Assembly: GCA_947631505.1 (NCBI GenBank)
Contig: CANRLR010000012.1
Span: forward strand, 1-64,000
DNA length: 64,000 nt
Source of the DNA: an uncultured Lachnospiraceae bacterium
GTDB taxonomy: Bacteria; Bacillota; Clostridia; Lachnospirales; Lachnospiraceae
Direction: 5' to 3'
Below the pieces are notes generated by a model. It saw only the letters and a list, made by a program, of their open reading frames with translations. It did no database searches and was not told the DNA's origin. Position 1 is the first letter of the stretch. Every line of letters begins with the position of its first letter. Positions 41,244 through 46,639 of this stretch are shown here, one piece after another. The translations under genes and the position numbers were made by a program.

Positions 41244-41346
41244 TATGCAGAATTATTGCATACTTGACAATTATGCAGGATTATTGCATATTTAACGATT
41301 ATGCAGAATTATTGCATACTTGACAATTATGCAGGATTATTGCATA
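41244..41346 (+). repeat. Four 19-bp palindromic repeats phased at exactly 28 bp (operator array)
   Basis: TATGCAG(A/G)ATTATTGCATA at 41244, 41272, 41300 and 41328; inverted TATGCA-N7-TGCATA. Confidence 0.95.
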
Positions 41347-41348
41347 AT
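41320..41348 (+). promoter_or_regulatory. Promoter for the SatD-like gene (second, degenerate copy at 41264-41292)
   Basis: TTGACA-17 bp-CATAAT; upstream TTGACA-17 bp-CATATT; operator copies fill the spacers. Confidence 0.65.
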
Positions 41349-41368
41349 TTACACAGGAGGATACAGTC

Positions 41369-42040
41369 ATGAATTATATAGCAATTATCGGTGATATAAA
41401 GGATTCTAAGGAGTTAGAAAATCGCAGTGAGGTGCAACAGAAACTGAATTGTGCCTTAAAATCTATAAATGAAGCTTACAGCACAGAGATTTCGTCAAAA
41501 TTTATTATTACTTTAGGGGATGAATTTCAGGGATTGTTAAAAGGCTATGGACATGTTCTTGATATTATAAAGTACATTCAGAGAGAGCTGTATCCTGTCA
41601 AGCTGCGTTTCGGAGCAGGTTTGGGTGAAATAAATACAGATATTTTTCATGAAGCGGCTTTAGGTGCTGATGGCCCGGCTTATTATGCGGCCAGAAAAAT
41701 GATAGAAGAATTGCGGGAACAGGAGAAAAGTTTGAAAAAGCAGGCTGCTGATATTCAAATTGCAATGTATAATATAGAAAAATTTGAAGTGACAGAGATT
41801 AATACCATTCTTTTACTTATGAAGATAATTGAGGATGGGTGGTCGGAAAAGCAGAGGTATACGATTTGGGATATGGAACAGAACGGTGGAAGTCAGGAAG
41901 AATGTGCAAAACGGATGGGGACAACTCAGTCAACGGTTGCCCGTAGACTGGCGGAGGGCAATTATGTAAGTTATATACGAGTTAGAAAAACGGTTGAGGA
42001 AGCATTAAAGAGATTAGGAGAAGCACAGAATGATAACTAA
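41369..42040 (+). CDS. SatD-family-like protein with C-terminal HTH
   Basis: MNYIAIIGDIKDSKEL...FIITLGDEFQGLL...LRFGAGLGEI...GADGPAYYAARKMIEEL; EECAKRMGTTQSTVARRL HTH; RBS caggagg. Confidence 0.8.
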   Translation: MNYIAIIGDIKDSKELENRSEVQQKLNCALKSINEAYSTEISSKFIITLGDEFQGLLKGYGHVLDIIKYIQRELYPVKLRFGAGLGEINTDIFHEAALGADGPAYYAARKMIEELREQEKSLKKQAADIQIAMYNIEKFEVTEINTILLLMKIIEDGWSEKQRYTIWDMEQNGGSQEECAKRMGTTQSTVARRLAEGNYVSYIRVRKTVEEALKRLGEAQNDN

Positions 42041-42773
42041 ATATCTATTGATTTTCGGAATTGCACATTTGCTGGGGGATTTCTATTTTCAGACTGAAAA
42101 AATGGCGAGGGAGAAAGAGATAAAATATAAGGGAGTATTATTCCACTGTGCAGAGTATTTTGTAGTCACTTTATTAGTTGTTTTACCGGTATTCAGCTTT
42201 GATATGATGATTGCGTCTCTATATACAGCTTTAGCACATTTGGTAATAGATACGGTAAAGTATTTACTTTTGGCAACGAAAAAGATAAGAAAAAGCGGCA
42301 GAGTATTTGTGGCTGACCAGTGTGTACATGTATTCAGTATTTTTATGCTGGCTTCTTTCATGACTTACCGGAATTTTTCGATAGGGCATATAGGAATAGT
42401 AAATCGTATGTTAAATTTATATGGTTATGATGCAGAGATGCTTGCAAAATGGCTGTTTGTGATATTCATAAATCATAAACCAGCTAACATTTTGATACAG
42501 AACCTTCTTGGCGTTTATAAACCCAAGACGGAGGATAAGATAATAAAGGCAGATAATAAGATAGGAAGAAAAATTGGAACAATCGAACGATTTATAATGC
42601 TTGCCTTTTTGTCCGTGAATCAGTATACAGCGATGGGATTTGTACTCACAGCAAAGTCGATTGCCAGATACGATAAGATTACAAAGGATGAAAAATTTGC
42701 AGAATATTATCTGCTTGGCACATTAGTCAGTACATTAAGTGTAGTTCTGTGTAAACAGTTGATTTTATCGTGA
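42030..42773 (+). CDS. DUF3307-like integral membrane protein
   Basis: LLIFGIAHLLGDFYFQTEKMAREKEIKYKGVLFHCAEYFVVTLL; overlaps the SatD-like gene by 11 nt. Confidence 0.8.
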   Translation: MITKYLLIFGIAHLLGDFYFQTEKMAREKEIKYKGVLFHCAEYFVVTLLVVLPVFSFDMMIASLYTALAHLVIDTVKYLLLATKKIRKSGRVFVADQCVHVFSIFMLASFMTYRNFSIGHIGIVNRMLNLYGYDAEMLAKWLFVIFINHKPANILIQNLLGVYKPKTEDKIIKADNKIGRKIGTIERFIMLAFLSVNQYTAMGFVLTAKSIARYDKITKDEKFAEYYLLGTLVSTLSVVLCKQLILS

Positions 42774-42824: not shown

Positions 42825-42853
42825 TTGACAAAAATGTACAATGATGATACAAT
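42825..42853 (+). promoter_or_regulatory. Promoter upstream of the MCP leader
   Basis: TTGACA (42825-42830) - 17 bp - TACAAT (42848-42853). Confidence 0.75.
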
Positions 42854-42859
42854 ACTAAT

Positions 42860-42988
42860 ACAAAATCATATGGAAAACCGGGGATAGGATTTGACAAAGA
42901 TGTGTCAGGAGAACAAACTTGGGTACAAGCTGTTTTTGGCATATATACTTAGCAGGTCCTAGCTTGTGAGTATGAAAGTAAATATTAA
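42860..42988 (+). ncRNA. Candidate structured 5' leader (riboswitch-like), class unknown
   Basis: Lies between a good promoter and an intrinsic terminator upstream of the MCP; local stems acaagct/agcttgt and tgaca/tgtca. Confidence 0.4.
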
Positions 42989-43030
42989 AACCTGTTATTA
43001 TAGTCTGTACTATAATAACAGGTTCTATTT
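42989..43030 (+). terminator. Intrinsic terminator in the MCP leader
   Basis: aacctgttattatagt-ctgt-actataataacaggtt followed by ctattt. Confidence 0.8.
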
Positions 43031-43095: not shown

Positions 43096-44634
43096 ATGAT
43101 GGAGAAGAAAAAAGGTGCAGTTGAAGTATATTTATCTACTGTGTTTAAATGGGGAATCATAATATTTGTGAGTGCCTGTATGTGTGCTACATTGACGTTT
43201 ATGACGGAAAAACTGTTGGGATTCTATCCGAATGTTCCGTGGATCGCATTAACTCTTTTTGTCTTGATGGATGTTTTAGTCTTTTTAATTGGTATCTTTA
43301 TCGTAAAGACATCATTTGATGGAGAGGGTTATCTGAAAGAGGGAAAACTGAAGGTTGGTAAATTGTTTACCGGAATTGTATTGGTAGTACAGTGGAATTA
43401 TATTTTGTATATGATTCCGTCAAGAACATTTTGGGGATTTTTGTTCTTCTTTCTGATTCTTATAGCGTTCTTCTTGGATATTAAATTGGTATTGACCAGT
43501 GGAATTATCTGTATAGGCTCTCTGTTTATTGCATGGGGCGTGCGGAGTGCAGAACTCATGCCGGTAAAAGATGAGTTATTTATTACCGATATTCTTATGA
43601 GTTTGATAGCACTTTTATTATCATTGGCAGGATTACTGATTTTTGTATATTTTGTGGCACATTTTCTAGTAAATGCAAAGAGGGATGAGTTAGAAAAGAA
43701 TAATGAACATGTGATGAGTGTTTTGGATTCTGTTCAGACATTATCGGAAAGACTTTATTCTGCGGGGGACTCCCTTTCACAGATTTCGGAGAATGAGAGT
43801 GCTTCTGCTGAGGAACTGGCCGCCACAAGTGAACAGTTAGTTAAAAGTAGTAATGTACTTAGTTCGAGAACGGATGAAAGTATGGTAAATCTGAGTGAAT
43901 TAAGTGAGTGGGAGGGCGTTGTTGCAAATAATGTAGAAAAGGTTGAAGTGACGTCCAAAGACCTGCTTGATAAATCAATCGAAAATGAAAAATTATTGAA
44001 TGATTTACATACAATTAACGGTGAAGTATCAGAATCCATGAAAGCTACGACTGATATCGCCCAAAAGTTATCCGATGCAGTACAGGAAATAGGCGTTACG
44101 CTGAATCTGATAAGTGATATTTCTTCGTCAACTAATTTATTGGCATTAAATGCTTCGATCGAAGCGGCAAGAGCCGGAGATGCCGGAAAAGGCTTTGCTG
44201 TTGTTGCAACAGAGGTAGGAAATCTTGCTAATAGCACACAGGAGTCCTTGAAGGAAGTAGAGTCTGTTATCGAACGGGTACAGCAAAATGTTAGAGAAAT
44301 TACGATGCAGGTCGAAGAAAATGCATCCAAACTGGGTACTCAAAATGATTATTTTGCAAATGTATTCCAAAGTATGAAGGATATGACAGAACTTCTGAAT
44401 GTCTCTGTTCAGGCCATTAATACGATGGGCGAGGCACATGGCAAACAGGCAGAAGTGATTAAAAAGACGGTTACGATTAATCAGGATATTGCAGAAAGTA
44501 TCAGAAATGAGATTGAGCAGTTTGATAACATTAATTCGATGGTGGAGAGCAATGCCACTGATACGGCACAGGTGGCAGATCAGGCAAATGCAATTAATGA
44601 AATGGTGGATGAAATGAGCAGACTGCTTAAATGA
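43096..44634 (+). CDS. Methyl-accepting chemotaxis-type protein with multi-TM N-terminus
   Basis: NLLALNASIEAARAGDAGKGFAVVATEVGNLANST hairpin tip; about 5-6 hydrophobic segments at the N-terminus; RBS aggagg. Confidence 0.92.
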   Translation: MMEKKKGAVEVYLSTVFKWGIIIFVSACMCATLTFMTEKLLGFYPNVPWIALTLFVLMDVLVFLIGIFIVKTSFDGEGYLKEGKLKVGKLFTGIVLVVQWNYILYMIPSRTFWGFLFFFLILIAFFLDIKLVLTSGIICIGSLFIAWGVRSAELMPVKDELFITDILMSLIALLLSLAGLLIFVYFVAHFLVNAKRDELEKNNEHVMSVLDSVQTLSERLYSAGDSLSQISENESASAEELAATSEQLVKSSNVLSSRTDESMVNLSELSEWEGVVANNVEKVEVTSKDLLDKSIENEKLLNDLHTINGEVSESMKATTDIAQKLSDAVQEIGVTLNLISDISSSTNLLALNASIEAARAGDAGKGFAVVATEVGNLANSTQESLKEVESVIERVQQNVREITMQVEENASKLGTQNDYFANVFQSMKDMTELLNVSVQAINTMGEAHGKQAEVIKKTVTINQDIAESIRNEIEQFDNINSMVESNATDTAQVADQANAINEMVDEMSRLLK

Positions 44635-45315: not shown

Positions 45316-46092
45316 TTATATTTTAATACTCTGTCCACAGGACAGATAATTAAGCTTTGACATATAATTTTTCATAAATTCATACTGTTTTTCTCCCGTA
45401 CAATGGCAGGTGTAATATTCGGTGTCAAAACTGTCTAATTGAAGAGCATATTCTTGAAGATTCTTATCAAGAGGAAGTTTGGAAAAATGAAAGCCGCCAA
45501 TCAGGTAATTGGGACAAAACCACCGGGTAATGTCTATGATTCCCTTGTGTGAGCATCCACTGATCAGCACCCTCTTATCTGCTTCTTCGATCAAGAGATA
45601 TTGTTCATGGCGAAAATCATCTGGTCTGAATATGCCATTTTCAACTGTATTTAATCCGGAGCTGCCGAGGTCAGAATTTCGTTTATTCTCATTGCAGCAA
45701 TATAGTGTCAATCCTTTATCAATGGCTGTAATATTATTGGTGTAAACGAGCCGGATATTATTTTTCAGCGTCAAATCAAGTCCGATATATTTTTCGGTGC
45801 CGTTATAGTGTGGTTCAAACGCATAACGGCTTAAATAGACCGGTGCTTTCTGATTGATTTCCAAAAATCTTGGAAGTCCGCCGCCATGGTCGTAATGTCC
45901 ATGGGATAAAATGGCAATATCAACAGAGGAAAGGTCAATGCCAAGAACTTCTGCATTTTGACAGAACAGGCTGGTCTGCCCCATATCAAAAAGGATGTTA
46001 TGTTCTTTTGTTTCGATATAAAGGCTTAGTCCATGTTCGGTGAATAAATTATCCTGCGTTGTTGTGTTCTCCAATAAAGATGTAATTTTCAT
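45316..46092 (-). CDS. MBL-fold metallo-hydrolase
   Basis: LSHGHYDHGGGLPRFLEI; LISGCSHKGIIDI; YYTCHCTG. Confidence 0.9.
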   Translation of the reverse strand: MKITSLLENTTTQDNLFTEHGLSLYIETKEHNILFDMGQTSLFCQNAEVLGIDLSSVDIAILSHGHYDHGGGLPRFLEINQKAPVYLSRYAFEPHYNGTEKYIGLDLTLKNNIRLVYTNNITAIDKGLTLYCCNENKRNSDLGSSGLNTVENGIFRPDDFRHEQYLLIEEADKRVLISGCSHKGIIDITRWFCPNYLIGGFHFSKLPLDKNLQEYALQLDSFDTEYYTCHCTGEKQYEFMKNYMSKLNYLSCGQSIKI

Positions 46093-46442
46093 TCAATATC
46101 ACCTCTTTTACAACGATGTCGTTTACAACCGCCGCAGCCGCAATGTTCTTCCTTGCCGTCACAGAGCCTGTAATCACCGCCTTCGATACGAAGAGCAGCA
46201 CCGTCAACAATGGCAGTGGCAATTTTCGTTCTTGCATTATTATAGATTTGCTGTACGGTAGTACGGGCGACCTGCATATAGCCGGCACACTCTTCTTGGG
46301 AAAAGCCCTCTTTATCAATAAGGCGAATACTCTCATATTCATCGACGGTCAGTATAATAATATTTTCTCCACCTGAACTTGGTAAAAATTCGGTTGCTTT
46401 TGGTAAACAACAAACCTTACGGCATTTTCTTGGTCTTGGCAT
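46089..46442 (-). CDS. DUF134-like HTH DNA-binding protein
   Basis: MPRPRKCRKVCCLPKATEFLP; LTVDEYESIRLIDKEGFSQEECAGYMQVARTTVQQIYNNAR. Confidence 0.9.
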   Translation of the reverse strand: MPRPRKCRKVCCLPKATEFLPSSGGENIIILTVDEYESIRLIDKEGFSQEECAGYMQVARTTVQQIYNNARTKIATAIVDGAALRIEGGDYRLCDGKEEHCGCGGCKRHRCKRGDIE

Positions 46443-46639
46443 AGCCTGCTCCCTTTTCTCACAGTATAAATCTATATCCTTTATAGCATAGTTTATGTCA
46501 TATGTCAATAACTACGGAAGTATTCGGACAACTTTCCCTGACAGTTCCCGTTATGATCGTATTCATTATTTCAGTTAATTCCGCATAAATCACAACGTTC
46601 TGTTTCATACTAAAAGAAAAGGAAACAGGAGGTTCTATT

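Follow-up and report, generated by a model that had tools for sequence, protein, structure and literature searches.

The question raised by this locus is what a SatD protein and the DUF3307 membrane protein encoded directly behind it do together, and which protein acts on the palindromes in front of them. We analysed a window of 64,000 nucleotides (the whole stretch of DNA), in which the two genes are located as follows:

41369–42040, forward strand: satD, 223 aa, N-terminal palm domain and C-terminal helix-turn-helix (HTH), PF16264 E 2e-41
42030–42773, forward strand: membrane partner gene, 247 aa, DUF3307 domain and C-terminal module, PF11750 E 1e-18

The first-pass annotation had read them as a translationally overlapping two-gene operon of a SatD-like and a DUF3307-like protein. 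The genes indeed share 11 nt, and both family assignments were right, with 142 bits for SatD against PF16264 (Pfam cut-off 29) and 68 bits for the partner against PF11750 (cut-off 23). It also knew of no defined biochemical function for the pair, in agreement with our literature search for a function of the SatD-DUF3307 pair, which found no paper. The S. mutans sat operon gave the SatD family (PF16264) its name and thereby its acid-tolerance label; no mechanism for the family was found in the literature.

SatD was present in 22 of 295 sampled genomes of the order and in 70/399 genomes of the phylum, with a patchy distribution in the genus (2/39 genomes). DUF3307 was adjacent in 18 of the 22; the remaining four were two contig-end fragments and genomes G226 and G245. 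A contig scan recovered 548 SatD relatives, 80 of which were kept as named loci, and in nearly all of these a membrane gene directly follows satD with an overlap of 4–11 nt. The same overlapping pair is found on haloarchaeal plasmids, and the pairing survives at several loci in which the gene order is swapped, with the partner ahead of satD. Conservation of the pair as a neighbourhood, on which the first-pass annotation had made its proposal depend, was thus found in the order, at the named loci and in haloarchaea.

An array of four 19-bp palindromes, TATGCARRATTATTGCATA, lies 5' of satD with an exact period of 28 bp and 9-bp linkers, interlaced with two promoter-like sites:

41244–41262, no strand: operator palindrome 1, TATGCAGAATTATTGCATA (motif search with shuffles)
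41264–41292, forward strand: promoter-like site P1, TTGACA-17-CATATT, 10/12, enclosing palindrome 2, phase kept in relatives
41272–41290, no strand: operator palindrome 2, inside the −35/−10 spacer of P1 (motif search with shuffles)
41300–41318, no strand: operator palindrome 3 (motif search with shuffles)
41320–41348, forward strand: promoter-like site P2, TTGACA-17-CATAAT, 11/12, enclosing palindrome 4
41328–41346, no strand: operator palindrome 4, located in the P2 spacer and extending into the −10 box (CATAAT)
41355–41360, forward strand: Shine-Dalgarno sequence AGGAGG (from sequence)

Four palindromes covering the promoter region were seen as claimed: at up to three mismatches the window contains four matches, all in the array (shuffle mean 0.15; 0/100 shuffles reached four), and an exact search of the whole 2.74-Mb genome with the core palindrome motif returned this array only. 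The TTGACA boxes of P1 and P2 fall in the 9-bp linkers 1 and 3, and one period of the array is as long as one promoter. P2 is most likely the main promoter of the satD operon; a transcript from its CATAAT box would begin near the Shine-Dalgarno sequence.

Palindrome scoring without the period separated loci from shuffles too weakly, and period-aware scoring was used instead. When autocorrelations of the regions upstream of satD at 78 loci were pooled, 28/29 bp and twice these values gave the sole peaks, and control regions had none; 24% of loci exceeded z = 3 at lag 29 and 9% at lag 28, against 0% of control stretches. Free-period scans of distant loci, one of them haloarchaeal, gave 28 or 29 in 14 of the 15 significant scans. 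Site width co-varies with the period (19 bp/28 or 20 bp/29 in 48/52 scored loci), so that the 9-bp linker is constant. The phase of the −35 box within the linker is fixed as well, at +1 in 11/18 of the 28-bp loci and at +4 or +5 in 28 loci of the 29 family. The array therefore co-occurs with the pair as had been anticipated, but its letters are not conserved (TATGCA, TATAGC, TATTCA, TTCACCC, and GTTCGCC at different loci), and only the geometry is kept. At some 29-bp loci the array stops just upstream of the −35 box, and with such arrays regulation could have a different sign in different lineages.

The candidate for binding these operators is SatD itself, through the following element:

41894–41956, forward strand: SatD HTH, residues 176–196 in the AF2 model, with the R192 codon at 41942–41944

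Pfam gave weak HTH matches for the C-terminal HTH proposed from the sequence, and the AF2 model (pLDDT 94.7), in which helices 176–183 and 187–196 form the motif, supports it as well. HTH_30 (PucR/CdaR regulator) reached an insignificant 12.1 bits against a cut-off of 27, and the relatives of SatD by sequence among solved structures cover the HTH part only. Operator distance tracks recognition-helix distance after removal of palm-domain distance (partial Mantel r 0.32, 0/5000 permutations), and residue 192, within helix 187–196, ranks top of all variable positions for association with the operator. The TATGC operator accompanies R192 in 20/27 loci and K192 in 3/29. This association involves about six changes on the tree, and an independent-pairs test agrees in direction, with too few pairs for significance. 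Binding of the array by SatD is predicted with high confidence, and the suggested autoregulation through its own HTH is favoured by the association between operator and recognition helix. It is very improbable that the array serves some other regulator of the host and that the HTH of SatD is irrelevant to it: nothing speaks directly for such a regulator, the genome has no other exact sites, and across phyla the array accompanies satD and varies with the SatD recognition helix.

The N-terminal domain of SatD is, by model comparison, a putative palm of the nucleotidyl-cyclase/GGDEF/mCpol type, which we report as new. Its candidate metal ligands are encoded at two places:

41393–41395, forward strand: D9 codon, invariant acid at the end of β1, putative metal ligand (alignment, HHalign)
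41519–41524, forward strand: D51-E52 codons, GDEF hairpin, invariant, putative metal ligand (alignment, HHalign)

The fold search speaks for the nucleotide-binding domain guessed at earlier: in Foldseek, class III adenylyl cyclases came out on top, and after them the Panoptes OptS mCpol, GGDEF domains, GTP cyclohydrolase III, and Cmr2. The similarity to class III cyclases (E 7e-5, probability 1.00, target-normalised TM 0.51–0.59) is a likeness of fold only. In the AF2 model D9 ends β1 and D51 is in the β2/β3 hairpin, and HHalign placed D9 and D51/E52 opposite the catalytic acids of GGDEF domains and class III cyclases. A wide palm profile gave 65% for GGDEF, 27% for class III and 0.5% for an unrelated control, and a narrow one 3.6% for class III cyclases; homology to cyclases at the level of sequence profiles is below usual certainty. 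SatD had no match in a search with Pfam PF00211. It shares with class III adenylyl/guanylyl cyclases and GGDEF domains the palm fold, the acid at the end of β1 and a GD or GDEF hairpin, but is remote from them by sequence: the GG(D/E)EF motif is replaced by LGDEF, with an invariant L49 in place of the first G, and of the class III Asn-x3-Arg the alignment has an invariant R109 and no Asn at the matching place, nor is a base-specifying Lys evident.

All 161 alignable homologues with a membrane partner keep both D9 and D51 (some loci were sampled twice, and the apparent exceptions are open reading frames cut by contig ends, i.e. gaps and not substitutions), and every alignable homologue with a substituted D9 or D51 is without one. 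The substituted cases are G226, G245, and a clade of paralogues within one family. In G245, satD precedes a metallophosphoesterase gene; in G226 (locus L261) a SatD with decayed palm acids, an intact HTH, and a 29-bp-type array stands directly before a gene for an EF-G/tetracycline-protection-like GTPase, whose score does not reach the curated family cut-off, and this suggests that SatD was recruited there as a regulator of another gene. The paralogue clade (L243, L245, L249, L250, L252, L255, L258, and L259) lacks both palm acids and the partner, and several of its members share a conserved PPTLYA motif at their start. A further variant (L023–L025, L028, L029, and L265) has a long tetratricopeptide-like C-terminal extension beyond the HTH. 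At six loci (L044, L047, L048, L187, L194, and L217) no partner is nearby despite an intact SatD, which we count against the model proposed below.

That the palm catalyses or senses a ligand in a manner tied to the partner has, in our judgement, even chances. PucR/CdaR proteins have a palm-like domain followed by an HTH as well, and two of them, Rv2242 (9f80) and BAD_0249 (3onq), share this architecture and were aligned over their full length in the fold search. By analogy, the palm could be a ligand-sensing or dimerisation domain only, in which case SatD would make no signal and simply repress its own operon, the partner being a membrane transporter or enzyme. The persistence of degenerate SatDs with an array, which likely regulate other genes (L015/L261 before the GTPase), fits this reading as well. 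SatD differs from PucR/CdaR proteins in retaining the acids and in having a membrane partner, and the invariance of D9 and D51-E52 where the partner is present argues against a sensor alone. A role beyond DNA binding is also indicated by palm-only extra SatDs lacking the HTH near the pair in three genomes and by L049 (5980–7182), where the palm of SatD and the complete membrane partner read as one in-frame chain, the HTH being gone and two palindromes lying upstream; both kinds of locus are reported here as new, and a deletion or assembly error is a possible alternative origin of the fusion. We regard the sensor-only explanation as rather unlikely.

In the partner, two regions stand out:

42048–42371, forward strand: DUF3307 domain with conserved H13/D17, H39, H70/D74, and D96-Q97-H100 (alignment)
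42540–42770, forward strand: unnamed C-terminal membrane module, GxxIGxxER...AKSIARF/Y...FAEYYLLGTLxS (alignment of relatives)

The DUF3307 half has the conserved pattern H-x3-D, H, H-x3-D, DQ-x2-H, and the second half conserves E186, R187, K209, R213, and E225. Stand-alone DUF3307 (PF11750) proteins are phage proteins of about 120 aa, to which the cellular partner adds the C-terminal module; no Pfam model covers this module. The partners of alphaproteobacteria and of several Firmicutes lineages keep the module and are without DUF3307. The first-pass annotation was correct in assigning a multi-TM DUF3307-like protein, with one correction: judged from alignments, the constant partner of SatD is the unnamed C-terminal module and not DUF3307 itself, and we report this as new. 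The partner is predicted to be all-helical (pLDDT 93.6). Its model contains no soluble nucleotide-binding domain, which counts against our model, and a PDB fold search with it found no solved structure alike. A viral fold library returned only small DUF3307 phage proteins, none with E < 0.001. Homology to the membrane metal-dependent hydrolase YdjM found no support (HHalign 1.3%).

Two other parts of the window are recorded here as separate observations. The leader of a chemoreceptor gene (43102–44634), at 42825–43030, has a strong promoter-like site, a very stable fold (z −5.5), and a terminator-like hairpin; it had no credible Rfam match, was absent from 38 other genomes of the genus, and is possibly an unclassified cis-regulatory RNA. 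At 45316–46508 on the reverse strand, a metallo-beta-lactamase-fold protein adjoins a DUF134 protein.

Structure 9pd0 of the Panoptes mCpol is among the best structural matches to SatD, and the pair resembles Panoptes OptS/OptE (mCpol and 2TM effector) in its two-gene operon of a membrane protein and a palm protein with two similarly placed key acids, which in OptS are Asp6 and Asp57 (PMC12657218). We considered a Panoptes- or Pycsar-like anti-phage system, with a toxic membrane effector that a nucleotide either holds back or sets off. This layout of a cyclase/mCpol-like palm with a membrane protein (PMC12657218) and the patchy presence noted above for genus and order, and on plasmids, are compatible with it. 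However, PADLOC gave no match, the genes flanking the loci had no clear excess of defence families (judged with no formal background set), and the all-helical partner lacks S-2TM-beta and a CNB-type sensor. SatD differs further in its HTH and self-operator, such an array being no hallmark of Panoptes or Pycsar systems. A tblastn search with SatD and DUF3307 against phage records yielded no relatives. An anti-phage function of this type appears improbable.

The reading we prefer, and hold to be somewhat better than evenly supported, is an autoregulated SatD-DUF3307 signalling operon in which SatD binds the array, produces or senses a nucleotide through its palm, and thereby controls the partner. 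SatD would bind via its C-terminal HTH as cooperating dimers on the tandem palindromes, which occupy the spacers of the satD promoters, and so set the dose of both itself and the membrane protein. Repression is likely where a site sits between −35 and −10. The palm may bind metal and nucleotide at D9/D51 and either make or sense a small nucleotide signal, and this activity would serve to control the co-translated membrane protein, the essential part of which would be the C-terminal module.

No earlier description was found of the palm fold of SatD, the operator arrays, or the link between residues and partner. More tentatively, and with somewhat less than even confidence, the system could represent an undescribed class of signalling in bacteria and haloarchaea, in which one protein combines a palm nucleotide synthase or sensor with transcriptional control of its own operon and doses a membrane effector of new fold via a phase-locked array, the letters of which drift at constant geometry. 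Two named, functionally blank families are joined here into one testable system. The loci also provide a natural series of pairs of DNA-binding protein and operator, with built-in symmetry, a spacing set as by a ruler, and predictions of specificity for residue 192. Should the palm prove active, nucleotide signalling would gain a new branch, widespread in gut Clostridia and found also in archaea, in which a synthase and its own regulator are fused in one protein.
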